DNA of 64,000 nucleotides, taken from the NCBI GenBank assembly GCA_010356995.1, contig ML996704.1, positions 1-64,000 of the forward strand. Direction: 5' to 3'. Under the pieces are notes generated by a model. It ran no database searches. It was given only the letters and a program-made list of their open reading frames with translations, and was not told the origin of the DNA. Below, piece by piece: positions 48,800-62,987 of this stretch (positions are counted from its first letter, which is position 1; every line of letters starts with the position of its first letter). Source of the DNA: Trichodelitschia bisporula (lineage: Eukaryota; Ascomycota; Dothideomycetes; Phaeotrichales; Phaeotrichaceae). The position numbers and the translations under genes were made by a program.

Positions 48800-49181
48800 A
48801 TGACCGACCTCCTCCGGACACTACCCGATTTCTCAACGGCGCCCTTCTCGCACCTCCTCCCGTCGCTAGATCGCACGCATATCACAACGGCCGATCTCCT
48901 CACCCTCGATGCCGGCGACGTAGCGAAACGGGCACAGCTCCCCCCCGCGGAGGTCGCGAAACTGACGCGGGCAGTGGTTGACGCGCTACACACGGACTTG
49001 GGCGTGGGAGATGGAGTTGGGGATAAAGAGAATGGCGATGCGGGCCGAAAGGGAGATCTCAGTAAAGATGATGGTTTTCGGGCAATCAGCACGCTCGACC
49101 CGGTCCTCGACGATGCGCTGGGCGGCGGCATACCACGCGGCTTCGTAACCGAGATCACAGGCGCGAGGTACATCCCCATAT

Positions 49182-49238
<57 letters not shown>

Positions 49239-50056
49239 ACCACCAACTAACGCCCCCCAGCGGCGCCGGCAAAACCCAATTCCCCCACCCCCTCCTCCTC
49301 TCCTCGCAACTCCCCCCCAACCCCAACCCCCCTTCTACCAGTATCTACATCTCCACCGAAGCCCCCCTCTCCACCCCGCGCCTCGCCCAAATCCTCACCC
49401 ACAACACCGCCCTCCGCACCCTCCCCTCAGCTCACTGCCCCTCCCTCACCAACATCCTCGCCATCCAGACCCCGGACCTCGAATCCCAAGACCACATCCT
49501 TTACTACCAACTCCCCGTCGCCATAGAGCGGCACAGTGCACGCCTCGTAGTCATAGACTCCATCGCCGCAAACTACCGCGCCGAAATCGGCACCCGCGTC
49601 GCCGGTGGGCCGCACCCGCTCGCCCTCCGCCGCGCGCACCTCCAACGCACAGGCGCGCACCTCCGCTCCCTCGCCTTAAAATACAACATCGCAATCGTAG
49701 TCGCAAACCAAGTCGCCGACCGGTTCGAAGCGGAGCTCTCCCCCCGCTCCGGCGGCGACGGTATCACGCCCGACCCGCTTGCATTGGATCATCAGCAGCG
49801 GTGGTTTACAGGCTGGGGAGACGGGCCCACGAGGGGCCAGCCCAAGACGCCGTCCCTGGGGTTGGTGTGGGCGAATCAGATAGCGGCGCGGATAGCGCTG
49901 GTGCGGGAGGAGGAGGGGGAGGGGGAGAGGAGGAGGTGGATGAAGGTTGTGTGGGCGGCGTGGTGTGCGGCGACTACGGGGGAGGGGGTGGAGTATGAGG
50001 TTTGGGGTGGGGGGGTTAGGGGGGTGAGGGAGGAAGGAGGTGTACCCGATGAGTGA
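48800..50056 (+). CDS. RAD57: DNA repair protein RAD57 (Rad51 paralogue)
   Basis: The product has 387 residues from exons 48800-49167 and 49261-50056. The N-terminus (MTDLLRTLPDFSTAPFSHLLPSLDR..LTLD) and STLDPVLDDALGGGIPRGFVTEITGAS are characteristic of ascomycete Rad57. The Walker A motif GASGAGKT (121-128) is created across the exon junction: codon 123 is split AG/C. Walker B is LVVIDSIAANYRAE. The end has LALDHQQRWFTGWGD and TPSLGLVWANQIAARIAL, also Rad57-like. With Rad55 it forms the heterodimer that stabilises Rad51 filaments in homologous recombination. The intron holds a 56-nt poly(C) tract; its 93-nt length keeps the frame open, so a naive single-exon model would insert polyproline into the P-loop. 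Confidence 0.92.
49168..49260 (+). other. RAD57 intron with C56 tract
   Basis: The donor GTACAT and the acceptor CCCCAG flank an uninterrupted C run at 49183-49238 and a CTAAC branch site (49245-49249). The intron is 93 nt, divisible by three, with no stop in the RAD57 frame. The homopolymer length in any assembly is uncertain. Confidence 0.88.
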
Positions 50057-53526: not shown

Positions 53527-56500
53527 TCACGCCTGTACCGGCGCAAGCTGCTCCTGCAACCGCGGCACCACCCGCTCATACACCATATTGCCCAGCTGGC
53601 GCGTCCATGCAACCACAGGCACCGCCGGTAGCTTGTAGCCCGAGTACCACCAGATAATGAGCGAGATGAGCAGCGGGAACTGCAATCCGTTAGCATCTAT
53701 ACCCAACCCCAGCAAAATGCAAAGACTTACCCAAATGTACCACAAATTACGATCATGCTTCGCCGGCGTAAGCTTCTGCTCCCTCAACCGCCTCAACTCC
53801 GCGGCCTCTTCACCACTCGGGCTAATCTTCCCAATATGCACCACCTCTCTTCCGCTGCGCCTAACCGGTCGCGGCGCCACAGGGCGCATCATCGCCGCCG
53901 TCGACGCACTCGCCTCAATCGTCTCCACCAGTTCCGGCGGCTTAGTATCAAAATCGTTATCCGCGCCCTCAGGACAAGCTTCATGGTACGGCGGGGGCGG
54001 ATCAGAGCTCGCCTCAGAGATAGCGTCGGACGCGGGCCGCGCACCATTGTACCGCGCCGGCAGCAGCGAGCTGATGCTCCGCCGCATAGTCGGGAAGTTC
54101 TGCTGGTACTCCTGGATAATGGGCGGGAGCGGCAGCTGCGGCAGGTTCGGCAGATTCCATCGCTGGCCCGTCTGGAGCTGGTTGATCTGTGCTGTGAGTT
54201 GGTCGCGCAGCGCAACCATGATGCCAGTCTCGGCGGCGTTAGCGGCGACGGTGGCGGCGGCGGCGGCCACTACGAGGTCGGCCCGAGACTCGCTGTTGCG
54301 CCGAGAAAATGCAACTGCACCGCTCGCCCGCCGTGATGCTAACCGGGTCTGCAGCGTGACCGGCTCGTCTTCCTCGCTGTCGTCGATCGCCGACTCTGAT
54401 TCCATCGACGAAATAGTGTCGCTGACGTCCGACGACGGCGGGCCCCACAACGAGCGCATCGACACGCTACTGTTCGCGCGGCTGCGCAGGTAAATGGCAC
54501 CCGCGCTGGCGGAGCGGAAGTGGCGGCGCACTTGGCGCAGACACGCCACGACCTCCGGCGACGCAGCAACGTCGATAGCAGTTGATCCCCGCAAGGTGCG
54601 CAGGTTCGTGTCCGCACCGCGCAGAATCACCTTGCGCACAATGGCCGTATGTCCGTTCATAGCGGCCATCATGAGCGGCGTAAAGCCCCCGTTGTCGGCG
54701 ACATCGGGATCCGCACCCCGCGCGAGCAGCCCTGCGACGAGCCTCTCATAGCCAAGACCGCAAGCCAGCGAAAGCATTGTCGCGCCATTCACCCCTTTCG
54801 TATCGAAAAACGGCTCGCCAGGCGAGTCCATCAAATCAATCTTCTGCAGCATCGCCACCACCGCGTCCTCACTGCTGACCATGCTGAGCACATTCGCATT
54901 GAAGCCCGAAGCCTGGCCGCCTGCAAAGCCGCCGCGCATGGATGGATTGAGCCCGAGCAGGTTCTGCGCATACTGCTGTGGATCAGCCAGCGGGCCAAGC
55001 TCCCGCGCGCACGCCGTCTTAATTGCCAGCTCGAACAGCTGATTGCGCCGGTCGTCGATGTAGGTAAAGGTCTCGCGCTGCGTCGGCAGCGGCGAATACC
55101 CCTGCTGCTGCTCCTCGACGAAGCTCACAGGCACGGGTCCCGGCGTGCGGGATGGCGGTAACAGGCAGACTAGCGTGTTCGAGTTCCAGAAGGTCGTCGT
55201 GGTAGCCTTGGCGTCGCCAAACTTGACTTCCAGGTTGCGCGAAAAGTTGCTCCCGAGTAAAATGACGTCAATACCGCCATTCATCGGTCCAGACTGCGGT
55301 GTCACCTTGAGGATGGTCGGCGTTTGTGCAGCTTGTGCCGTCGTCTCCTCCATGGTAAATGCGCTGGCAAACGGTTGGGGCATCGCCGGCATATCCGAAA
55401 AAGCGTTCATCTGCGGGCGCACAAACGATAGTGGACTCGCGGCGCGACTGGGGTGCGCCGAATTAGGCACCGAAAAGTAGCCGTTCTCGGCGTCGCGCAT
55501 CAGGTTGCCGCTAGGCGTCGGCGGGTTGGTGCCAAAGTGATTCTGCGGCATCTGCTGCTGCGCCATGGGCATCGGCCAGTCTTGAACATTGTTCATGCCG
55601 TCTGGCGACATCATTACGCTCGAGCGCGCGAGCGGACTCGTCTGCGGTACACAGGGGTGCTCGGGCGGACCCGGGCGCGTCATTTGCAGCGTGGCCGGCA
55701 GCTTGATCTGCCCGCCCGAGCTCTTACGCTTCTTCTTCGGCCCGAGTTGCGAGGACGGCGACGCGGGCCGCGAGAGCACCGGGATGGCAGGCGCCGTCGG
55801 GCTCATCATGCCAAAGTTCCACTGGTTGTTCTGGGGGTGCTCGACCGACATCGACGGCAGGTCCGTGGCAGAGTGGTAGGCGCGGCCAAGGCCAAAGTCA
55901 GGCAGCCCATTAATGCCGTTCGGCAGGACACCGTTCGGTAAGTTCTGGCCCTGCTGCATAAAGTACTGCGCCTGGTCGAGCGGCAGGCCACCGCCGTTTA
56001 TCGGCGCGTGCGTTTTGTGGTCATCGGTAATGAGAATCGACTGGGACATTTCCTGCGCGACCACGTTACCTTCGTGGTCCTTGATCGTAAATATGACCTG
56101 GAAGCCGAGTTTCTCCGATTGATGCCTGCAATAGCAGGCTATGCGCATGGGCGCGTCGACCTGCTGCGCGACGGGCGAGAAGCGGACAGTATCGGGATAC
56201 TGATCGCATGCGTTCGGCGGATGAAAGTCCTTGTATTCGACCGTGTTGAAGACAATTATGCGGTCTTGCTCGTACTGGTACCAGATGTCTTCGTTTTCCT
56301 GGTTCTTGGCCTTTTTGCGACTCGCGCGCTTCTTTTCACGCCGCACGCAGCCCGAGCATATGCGCACGGGGCCGCCATTCATCGGCGAGTCGGGATCTGC
56401 CGGGTCGGGCTCGCTGCCTTTTTTAGAGTCGTCCATTGACGGGCGGCGGACGGTGCTGTGGGGAATGCCGGAGCGGGCGCGTGCAAGGGCACGCTCTCGG

Positions 56501-57573
56501 TTCGCCGGCTTCTCCATTGCGCTGGTGCAAACGACCATGGTCGAGAGCTCAAGCGTGTCGGGCGTCTTGGGCGTCTCCTTTGCGAGGAACTTTGCTTTTG
56601 AGATGGTTTCGGTCGGTAGATGGAGGCGGCGGATGCCCTTCGGCAGCGGGTCGAGGGTGAGACGGATGTTGATCTGCGTCTCTACACGCGATTTTGTTGC
56701 AAACGGGGAGATACTAAGTTTGGGAGCCTGGCCGACGTCGGTCGGGTTGCACTTCTTGAAGAAGCCCGGTCCCATTCGGGTCGGCTGTGCGAAGCGTTGA
56801 TCGCGGAAGCCGCGTGCCTGTTGGATGTGCGAGCGCCCGTCGGGGGAAAACTCCTGCCTCCACGGCGCGCTCTCCATGGTCGCCGACGGCGGCGTGTTGT
56901 CACGGCTCGACGTGCCGATGCTGAAGGTAGCGGGTGCGCGCGCGCTTCCAAACATCTAGAGAGTTAGCAAGGTGGGCAAAGGCTATGCAGGATGAAAGCT
57001 CACCATCTCGGACGGCTCATACTTGGGCTGCGGCGGAGTCGAAAAGCTCATCGCATTCATGTTCGGCGTCATAGCCATCTTGGGACTGTTCCCTGCGCTC
57101 GTAATGCTAAACCCGTGGAGCGTATTGGCATCAAACCCGTCTTGCAGGTATACTACAGGGTCAACCTTGGGGCGGCGCTTGTCGACTTCCATCGGGCTCA
57201 TGTGGCCATCAAACGTCACGGGCGAGCTGTAGTTACTAAAGTCGTTCGGCGACGAGCTGGCCGGACTCTTGCGTTTGCGGCGGCCCGACGAGTCCGACGA
57301 CGAGTCCTGACATGAGCTTTCAGGTGATGCCGACGACATGGCGGAGCGCTGCTGGACGAACTGCACGGCGGGCGGACGGACGAGCTTCGGCTGGTCGATG
57401 ACGGTGGCGGCGGTCGGGTGCGGCGACGCAATGTACTCGGTGTTCACCCAGGCGTCGATGTCGAACTGATTTGAGGGCGTGGCTGCCGTTCCGGCATCGG
57501 CGTCGTCGAACACTTCGCTGGAGATACCCACCATTGCGGTGGCATTGGGTTTTTGGGTTGATGTGAAGAGCAT
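53527..57573 (-). CDS. Mga2/Spt23-like membrane-tethered transcription factor
   Basis: The product has 1315 residues from exons 57573-57004, 56955-53731 and 53679-53527 (introns 48 and 51 nt). A disordered N-terminus with a basic patch (GRRKRKS) precedes a conserved region at about 240-480 (LSISPFATKSRVETQINIRLTLDPLP, GPVRICSGCVRREKKRASRKKAK, YQYEQDRIIVFNTVEYKDF). An IPT/TIG immunoglobulin-like domain lies at about 730-820 (PTILKVTPQSGPMNGGIDV). Ankyrin repeats follow at about 905-995, then a disordered part and a C-terminal membrane anchor at about 1260-1282 (NLWYIWFPLLISLIIWWYSGY). This is the layout of Spt23/Mga2, ER-anchored factors freed by ubiquitin-proteasome processing to induce OLE1 and other lipid or hypoxia genes. 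The start at 57573 is the first ATG of the open exon; a second ATG lies 13 codons in. Confidence 0.93.

Positions 57574-58139: not shown

Positions 58140-58176
<37 letters not shown>
58140..58176. repeat. G37 homopolymer upstream of the Mga2-like gene
   Basis: There are 37 consecutive G on the plus strand, equal to C37 on the sense strand of the Mga2-like gene, 567 bp before its ATG. It lies in the promoter or the 5' leader. Confidence 0.9.
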
Positions 58177-60460: not shown

Positions 60461-62765
60461 TCAAAGCACAACCTCCAACACCCGCTCCCTCAACCTCCCC
60501 ATCTCTCTCTCCCTCTCCTTCAACGCACCCTCCGCCCTCAAACACCGTTCCCGCCAAGCATGCATATCCCCCGCGTCCTCACCCCCTCCCTCAGGCGTTC
60601 CCTCCATCCCCAGCCTTATCGTTCCCTCAACTACCACGTCCCGCATGCTAAACACCCCTCTAACACCCCCCACACTCCCCGCCCACTCAACATCAAAGCT
60701 CTCCCGCACACCCTCCTCCACCTCCCCCTCGCCCCCCTCCTCAACCGGGCTATCATACCCATCCCGTCCCACGCGGAACCGGCGCACGTGCACCATCTTC
60801 CGCTCCCCCGCTCCCCTACCCGGCCCACCCAGCCCCAGCCAACTCGCCACAACCTCCCTCCCCTCCTCCGCAACCCTCATCCGGCCAAGCATAACCGCCG
60901 CGAGGGCCCTAGCCTCCGCACCCTTCATCCGCCTCTCTCGTCCCCTAACCTCCGCGCGGAGCAAATCCGCCGCCAATGCCCTCTGCAAATCCACAACCCA
61001 CCCCGCAACCCCCGGCAACAAGGGCGGCTTCATCCCGCCCCCGCTGACCTGCACCGGCGTCTGCCCGTAGTCAGGCTCAGTCGCGCTGCTCGCGTCGCTG
61101 AAGAACGTGCTTGCCGTGCGGTGGGAGGAGGCCGTGTTCATTCCCGTGCTACTAGCCGTTGGCAGCGTGGCGGGCGTGTAGGCCGTAGTCCCGGTAGCAG
61201 GCGTTGGCGTGGCGGCACTGCCGTTCGTTACGTGAGGTGGGGCAGGAGGCGGAGGGCCGTCCAAGCGGCCGTTTACGAGCAGCGTCGGCGTAACGAGGTG
61301 CACCGGCCCGCCGGTGTGCGGCGGTACTTGCAATTGGAGCCGCTCGGGCCGGCCCGGCGGCGGGGGATTGGGGACGCGGAAGTGCGCCGGTGGGGCCGGG
61401 GGGGCCGGTGATGCGGAAGGAGATGCGCGGGGCGAGGGGCCCGCGGCGGACGGGGTGGAGATGTGGTTTCGGGAAAGGTCAATGGTGGGTCCTTCCTTTG
61501 TCTTTGGATTTGCGGGGAAAGTGACGAAGGGCCCGTCGCGGACGGAGCGGTTGGAGGGCGGCCGGCCGCGTAGCTTGCCGCTCGCTGTCGTCGTACTGCT
61601 GGGCCAGGCGGAAGACACGGCGGGGCCGTGACGGCGGCGGGAGCGCTTAGACGTCGGCGTCAGGGTAGCTGCGTCGTCGAAGTCGGGGTGTGTGGAGAGC
61701 GGGGTGATGGCGGAGAGCGGGTGCGGCGTGGAAGGCGTCTCGTTGCGCCAGCGATAATGCGGGCCCGCGGGCGCCAGTTTCGTCCCCGGCGTGAGCGCGG
61801 ACCACTGGTCAGCGCTGGGGAAGAAGTCGTCCGCCTGGGCGGACATGGGCATTGCGCTCGACGGGCAGGCGGAGTCCGGGTAGTTGAAGGCGACGGAGGT
61901 GTCGAGGTGCGGGCGCTTGGGCTCAATGGCCGACGCGGGGTCCATGTCGTCGTCGTGGTCTTCGGCGCGGCGGCGCCCGCGCTTGGGGCGGAATTTGGGG
62001 TCGAGCGCGCGGATGGCGAGGTCTTCTTCTAGCGGTACGCCGTCGCGTTGGTCTGGGAAGGGGTCGGTGGGCGCGGGGATGGCGCGGAAGTAGCTGTGCG
62101 ATTTGCCCATTAGGTAGTCGAAGAAGGCGTCGATGTGGAGGGCGCGCATCCAGCGCTGCGGTGGGGGGTTAGTCTGGTTATGGTAAGGGGGGGGGGGGGG
62201 GGGGGGGGGGGGTGGGTGGGGGGGGGGGGGGGGGGGGGGGGGGCGGGGTGCATACTTTTAGGCGCACAGAGTACTGCTGCACCTTCTGCGAACTCTGCCC
62301 CTTGTCTGCGGACGGGCGCTCCACGCCCAGCGCCAGCGCTAGCTCGGTCCAGGTCTTCACTTCCTTGGCCTCGTGCTTTTGGATCAGGCCGAAGAGTGCG
62401 TAGGTGCTGAAGCTCTTGCCGTCGGATTTGGGGGGGGAGCGGAATACTTTGCGCAGCTCGGCTGTATCGACGCTCAGTGGGAAGGAGGGGTTGCAGTAGA
62501 GGATGAAGGAGATGTAGGCGGAGTCTAGGGTGTCGTCGCGGACGTCGGGCGGGGGGAGGGCGCGGTCGCGCGGGATGTAGGGCGGTCGGGTCGTGGGGTG
62601 GGGGGAGAGGGGGTTGAAGCGCGGGGAGGGGTTGGAGGGGGTTGAGGGGGTGGCCAGGGGGGGGCGGTCGTAGAGGTGTTGTGCGTGCTGATGTTGTTGC
62701 GGTTGTTGCTGCTGGTGGTGGTGTTGTTGATGCTGGTGGTGGTGTTGTTGATGCTGCTGCTGCTG

Positions 62766-62816
<51 letters not shown>

Positions 62817-62987
62817 GATATCCAGATGCGACGGCGCAGGCAGCGTCCGCGTCACCTCCATTGCATGCTCGACCGGCGACACCGTCTGCCTATACGTCGT
62901 CGCGAAGGGCGGCGGCGCGGTATGCGCCGTGTTATAGGGTGCGTGCGAGGACATGTGCAGCGGATCGTCGGGGGGATTGAAGTCCAT
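60461..62987 (-). CDS. ARS-binding protein 2 (Abp2-domain) homologue
   Basis: The product has 808 residues from exons 62987-62256 and 62155-60461 (intron 100 nt). The first ATG is at 62987 (context AGCCATGG). The N-terminal region carries a 15-Gln run encoded by pure CAG, then a Gln/His-rich stretch. The ordered domain (about 155-270) reads DDTLDSAYISFILYCNPSFPL, then ELRKVFRSPPKSDGKSFSTYALFGLI, then KGQSSQKVQQYSVRLKRWMRALHIDAFFDYLMGK. This is the Abp2 domain of fission yeast ARS-binding protein 2 and its ascomycete relatives. The C-terminal half is Pro/Ala-rich and ends in an Arg/Glu coiled coil. It is expected to bind AT-rich replication-origin DNA in the nucleus; the role outside fission yeast is not established. 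The intron falls inside the domain and holds two G26/C26 runs. Confidence 0.88.
62156..62255 (-). other. ABP2 intron with two C26 runs
   Basis: On the sense strand the intron reads GTATGC, then C26 (62243-62218), a short ACCCA interruption, C26 (62212-62187), then a CTAAC branch and CCGCAG. It separates VRLK from RWMRALH, inside the conserved domain. Confidence 0.88.
62769..62813. repeat. (CTG)15 / (CAG)15 trinucleotide repeat
   Basis: There are fifteen uninterrupted CTG units on the plus strand, read as CAG in the ABP2 coding strand and giving a 15-residue polyglutamine run. Irregular CTG/TTG/GTG triplets flank it at 62680-62768 and encode the Gln/His-rich stretch. Confidence 0.95.

Follow-up and report, generated by a model that had tools for sequence, protein, structure and literature searches.

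A 56-nt poly-C tract in the RAD57 intron of Trichodelitschia bisporula: probably a tolerated member of a genome-wide class

Introduction

In the dothideomycete Trichodelitschia bisporula, the Walker A motif of a predicted Rad57 protein is divided by an intron carrying 56 consecutive cytosines, which raises the question of whether the tract acts as a length-dependent switch for a repair gene or is simply tolerated because it is intronic; a sequence-only reading of the locus had put forward both. Long C/G homopolymers in or near a gene are familiar from the phase-variable contingency loci of bacteria, from which the RAD57 tract differs in sitting in an intron that is predicted to be spliced out.

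Here, we consider the tract in ‘the window’ (the whole 64,000-nt stretch analysed, positions 1 to 64,000 of contig ML996704.1, forward strand) and against the complete assembly (GCA_010356995.1). We conclude that the tract probably grew from the C-rich pyrimidine segment that this fungus' introns tend to have just inside the 5' splice site, and that it is probably tolerated rather than serving as a repair switch.

Results

An intron that divides the Rad57 Walker A motif

The gene that carries the tract is, as judged from its predicted product, a Rad57 ortholog (Table 1). Its spliced form, of 387 amino acids, has a Rad51-family core with Walker A and Walker B motifs, matches the Pfam Rad51 profile from residue 96 (PF08423, 1.5e-20), and finds S. 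cerevisiae RAD57 as its best match amongst the sequences of solved structures (PDB; E 7.3e-29), in an alignment that runs ungapped over the intron junction. The 93-nt intron (GT at 49168-49169, AG at 49259-49260) has the hallmarks of a spliceosomal GT-AG intron: a GT donor, a CTRAY branch motif and a YAG acceptor, with homology unbroken across the junction. It cuts codon 123 in phase 2 (AG/C), within GASGAGKT (residues 121-128), and joining of the two halves restores serine 123. The C56 run is uninterrupted, starts at intron position 16 and lies 5' of the branch motif; the placement originally proposed is confirmed. By letters and spacing, the branch and acceptor motifs appear canonical; the GTACAT donor is uncommon, occurring in 2 of the 94 introns predicted in a 263.6-kb sample of the genome (see below).

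Table 1. Features of the predicted RAD57 gene and its tract-bearing intron (window coordinates).
Feature	Position	Strand	Basis
RAD57 exon 1, from ATG to the AG of codon 123	48800..49167	+	reading frame, gene model, Pfam and structure-sequence match
Spliceosomal intron GTACAT...CAG, 93 nt	49168..49260	+	splice motifs; also recovered by ab initio gene models
5' splice site GTACAT	49168..49173	+	letters
C56 tract	49183..49238	+	run count; between 5' splice site and branch motif
CTAAC branch-site motif	49247..49251	+	letters; spacing to 3' splice site
3' splice site CAG	49258..49260	+	letters
RAD57 exon 2: remainder of Walker A, Walker B, stop	49261..50056	+	Pfam and structure-sequence match

Long poly-C tracts form a genome-wide class

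Across the assembly (25,654,952 bases in 30 contigs), with runs counted on both strands by their left border, there are 1219 runs of C>=10, 301 of C>=15 and 129 of C>=25 (127 if counted by the right border). The C>=25 tracts have a mean length of about 44.6, and the three longest measure 90, 95 and 98, with none >=99 in the genome. Base composition would predict about 2e-6 tracts of C>=25 genome-wide (and about 6e-23 of C56), and even extrapolation of the decay from 10 to 15 yields only about 18. Since runs of A>=15 number just 8, the expansion is specific to C/G and the class lies far above chance. Loss of mismatch repair as its cause is unsupported, with A runs unexpanded and matches to MutS_V present in six places.

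Tracts avoid predicted exons and favour one strand

Of the 129 C>=25 tracts, 46 were read together with their flanking sequence. Loci of ten kb (20 in all) supplied 22 of these, loci of 400 bases another 20, and the window the other 4; since the choice followed contig order (contigs 1-5 plus the window), the sample is non-random. A gene model self-trained on 263.6 kb of sequence predicted 78 genes and 94 introns, with predicted CDS making up 41% of the sample; the model disallows introns of <42 nt, and is therefore mute on minimum intron length. For the 26 tracts in this sequence, the first model placed 6 in introns, all C-sense (0 G-sense), and none in predicted exons. The other 20 were assigned to the nearest gene, with 11 C-sense against 1 G-sense on its 5' side, and 2 C-sense against 6 G-sense on its 3' side. 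As the noncoding training data of this model contained the tracts themselves, the exercise was repeated with tract-neutral scoring, which gave 1 tract in an exon (in locus L031), 6 in introns, and C:G ratios of 10:1 on the 5' side and 2:6 on the 3' side. Long tracts thus avoid predicted exons (0-1 of 26).

The 20 loci of 400 bp yielded three further tract introns, all C-sense and none G-sense. A motif scan found no G-sense tract intron around any of the 46 tracts, a scan that is incomplete, as it also overlooked one real C-sense intron (L036, with a GTCCGC donor), recovered from the gene model and a match to Vtc1; a further candidate from the same scan, at L054, was dropped as its flanks were judged to be non-coding.

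Several individual tracts deserve mention. A G37 run in the window (58140-58176) has C on the transcript strand and precedes the predicted start of a minus-strand gene (53527-57534) by ~600 nt. At L034, L047 and L050, the sequence flanking a long C tract has the same best-scoring frame on both sides, without stops over 200 nt each way; by the gene models the tracts lie upstream of genes, but any of the three may encode an in-frame polyproline segment, L034 (C75) being the likeliest. At L058, a C25 tract adjoins 10 N, with similar flanking sequence repeated on both sides, which suggests a gap in the assembly or a false duplication.

Eight introns with a common arrangement

Nine of the 46 tracts fall in eight introns, all with C on the transcript strand: those of Rad57 and Abp2 (both in the window), Vtc1 (L036), an MFS transporter (L042), and of the genes at L048, L060, L062 and L065. 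Each of the eight has its first long tract beginning at intron position 11-20, ahead of a CTRAY branch motif whose A lies 9-14 nt from the 3' end of the intron. At L060, the tract abuts the branch motif, with its last C serving as the first C of the motif. The strand bias of 8:0 (two-sided p 0.008) rests on eight introns.

Homology also bridges the junction in Abp2 (PF09441, 144-312, junction at 244), in the MFS transporter (PF07690, 51-450, junction at 206) and in Vtc1 (E 1.8e-58, an ungapped match over residues 1-120 with the junction near residue 11); to judge from these assignments, the four hosts validated by homology, Rad57 included, have no common function. The Abp2 (ARS-binding-protein-2) gene, on the minus strand at 60461-62987, has a 100-nt intron that holds two G26 runs (62187-62243), again with C on the transcript. 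The remaining four introns are supported chiefly by their splice motifs and open reading frames, since L048 gives just a sub-threshold MARVEL match, and L060, L062 and L065 have no Pfam match at 0.01. By eye, rather than by alignment, the eight introns are alike only in their splice signals and tract, and the idea of a shared mobile intron (introner) is unsupported.

Short C runs carry the same bias

Short runs were counted in the 71 of 78 genes with a score of at least 25, together with as much as 400 nt before and 300 nt after each. In the 5-7-nt class, C:G counts are 20:3 in introns, 68:22 upstream and 160:169 in CDS; downstream (<=300 nt, 65 predicted genes) the runs turn G-rich on the coding strand, at 8:37, opposite to upstream. 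For the 8-11-nt class, the counts (1:0 in introns, 5:4 upstream, 1:2 downstream, 9:8 in CDS) are too low to reveal this skew, and those upstream are unskewed. Amongst intronic C runs of 4-11 nt, 48 of 63 lie 5' of the branch motif, G runs totalling 12. In a predicted intron of L031 (9507-9568, reverse-strand coordinates), a C12 lies 3' of the branch motif, between it and the acceptor, where C runs are less common. The long tracts share the local skew of the 5-7-nt class, as expected from growth out of such seeds, so that a gene-specific function is not needed to account for them.

Consequences of retaining the RAD57 intron

If retained at C56, the intron leaves the frame open, to give a protein of 418 amino acids with 31 additional residues, 18 of them prolines from the tract; the earlier description of a stopless intron whose retention adds a run of about 18 prolines is borne out. 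Its further suggestion, that retention would escape nonsense decay, is true at C56 and fails as a general statement, as it applies to one length in three: loss of one base brings the TAA within the branch motif into frame, with a stop at residue 150, whilst gain of one shifts the frame, with a stop at residue 400. The Rad51-profile match of the retained protein survives only 3' of the insertion (from residue 156, 2.5e-15).

Of 82 phase-anchored introns, 28 have a length divisible by three (3n) and 31 lack a stop; 10 combine the two properties. Five of the anchored introns carry C>=25, and just that of Rad57 is both 3n and stopless (1 of 5). Of the unanchored tract introns, L060 is 3n and stopless in one of two open phases, and neither L062 nor L065 has a 3n length. 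The combination of stopless and 3n is thus no rule of the tract-intron class. With 10 of 82 introns sharing it, and Rad57 alone amongst the anchored tract introns, the retained frame has no clear sign of selection; selection for in-frame retention, tried as an explanation, is unsupported, the more so as L060 qualifies in one of its phases.

Folding of the two strands

In a predicted fold of the RAD57 intron with 60 nt on each side, the sense tract stays unpaired (-34.0 kcal/mol). The antisense strand folds at -254.7 kcal/mol when quadruplexes are allowed (ViennaRNA quadruplex model), and at -73.0 kcal/mol without them; this antisense quadruplex folding offers a plausible reason for the strand bias.

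Discussion

Synthesising these findings, we suggest that slippage, or expansion based on recombination, would extend short C seeds into long tracts, which would then survive in places where splicing removes them and the RNA carries the C-rich strand. C-rich RNA may be tolerated because poly-C stays unpaired and pyrimidine-like, where a G-sense transcript would form quadruplexes and disturb splicing. The Rad57 intron would be spliced normally, with the tract acting at most as a spacer or pyrimidine stretch. Working from a single assembly, we infer that the tract has expanded and that its length may be unstable between isolates. What favours tolerated expansion over a repair switch is that the genome holds over a hundred such runs; the suggestion that the tract is tolerated because it is intronic fits the results.

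An alternative that we regard as unlikely, whilst giving it more weight than those that follow, is that the sense poly-C is actively kept as a splicing or 5'-leader element, for a poly-C-binding protein or the spliceosome. The uniform strand and starting position in the eight introns would fit, as would the L060 intron, where just 24 nt are left once the tract is subtracted; since this falls below the shortest intron of 42 nt in the Fusarium core-gene table (in the part of PMC5677156 used here), part of the tract is possibly needed there as a spacer. Against this, the 5-7-nt seeds carry the same bias without expansion, and tracts of C>=25 occur in only 5 of the 82 phase-anchored introns, even though the sample was chosen around such tracts.

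It is improbable that the tract, or its length, is a product of sequencing or polishing error. A possible read-length ceiling is hinted at by the cluster of longest tracts just short of 99, and the flanks of the L058 tract are repeated beside its 10-N gap; for these reasons, exact tract lengths should be taken with caution. Errors, however, would not be expected to shun exons or to favour one gene strand, and in four genes the flanking exons join in frame with homology.

Slightly less probable again is a repair-gene switch, in which tract length governs retention and a polyproline segment in the P-loop reversibly inactivates Rad57. The intron is indeed 3n and stopless at C56, sits within Walker A and, on retention, costs the protein its Rad51-profile match 5' of the insertion (from residue 156, as opposed to 1.5e-20 from residue 96 for the spliced form). 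The wider picture does not support the proposal: the tracts are a genome-wide class whose other homology-validated hosts are unrelated in function, stopless 3n introns are not rare, at a third of tract lengths retention would end in an early stop, the branch and acceptor motifs appear canonical, and the retained frame shows no clear sign of selection. If true, such a switch would matter for genome stability; the evidence favours an ordinary intron. Least probable of all is that RAD57 is a length-sensing node, with tract length tuning RAD57 splicing and Rad57-dependent recombination in turn affecting the stability of the 129 long G/C tracts, which would couple tract expansion to repair capacity in a feedback; recombination is cited, in the background of PMC2211496 (seen in part), as preventing G/C-tract deletions in dog-1 worms.

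Returning to tolerated expansion, the closest parallel lies in the tracts of Caenorhabditis maintained by DOG-1/FANCJ. According to the portion of PMC2211496 drawn on here, the 396 poly-G/poly-C tracts of C. elegans measure 18-32 bp, and just 4 fall in exons; intragenic tracts have G on the non-coding strand in 84 cases versus 47, their location within introns is unbiased, and in those tested, one per chromosome, length was unchanged between two wild isolates. In both systems, G/C homopolymers are strongly over-represented, mostly intronic or near genes, rare in exons, and within genes have G preferentially on the template strand. In the fungus, the uninterrupted C>=25 tracts, all longer than the 18-bp minimum in the worm, likewise occur far above chance, mainly in introns or intergenic sequence and rarely in exons, with G on the template strand in genes (26 tracts classified, 46 scanned for introns). 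We therefore regard these tracts as of the same kind, but longer (up to 98), stricter in strand (8:0 in the introns read) and, in the sample read, confined within introns to a narrower position near the 5' splice site.

Matches to the DEAD_2 helicase domain occur at only two places in the fungal genome (G000:C5:1316191 and G000:C5:758965). Helicases with this domain presumably include Rad3-like and Chl1-like proteins, with a FANCJ-type protein as a further candidate kind.

The position of the tract also recalls the polypyrimidine tract of fungal introns. In Fusarium, 83% of these fall in the stretch from the 5' splice site to the branch site, and five other fungi are reported to show a 5' preference as well (PMC5677156, citing Kupfer 2004, as far as the part consulted goes). 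C56 shares this majority position, 5' of the branch motif, and is pyrimidine on the transcript. It departs from the definition given in that part of the source (six or more nt, at least three T, no A; observed lengths 6-25 nt) in being pure C, 56 nt long and with zero T. G or C runs of >15 nt are on record from some filamentous fungi, where G/C accounts for 80 of 298 mononucleotide repeats >15 nt, in a survey that, in the portion available, covers predicted coding sequences and not introns or strand (PMC2621210). In moulds, a pyrimidine-rich stretch precedes the transcription start in core promoters such as that of xylP (PMC9703631, in part); it resembles our upstream tracts in being C-rich on the coding strand upstream of genes, and differs in being short, of mixed C/T and tested for activity. 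Amongst the matches listed from the open literature (titles and the starts of abstracts), none describes long poly-C tracts in fungal introns, which does not prove that a description is absent.

Finally, what we consider worth keeping is that a compact fungal genome carries poly-C of up to 98 nt, and that, in the part read, the transcript strand is the C strand and the tracts are placed close to the 5' splice site within introns, or else upstream of genes. This pattern makes testable the expansion of G/C homopolymers, the limits that the strand of transcription may set upon it, and the homopolymer load that a short fungal intron tolerates.
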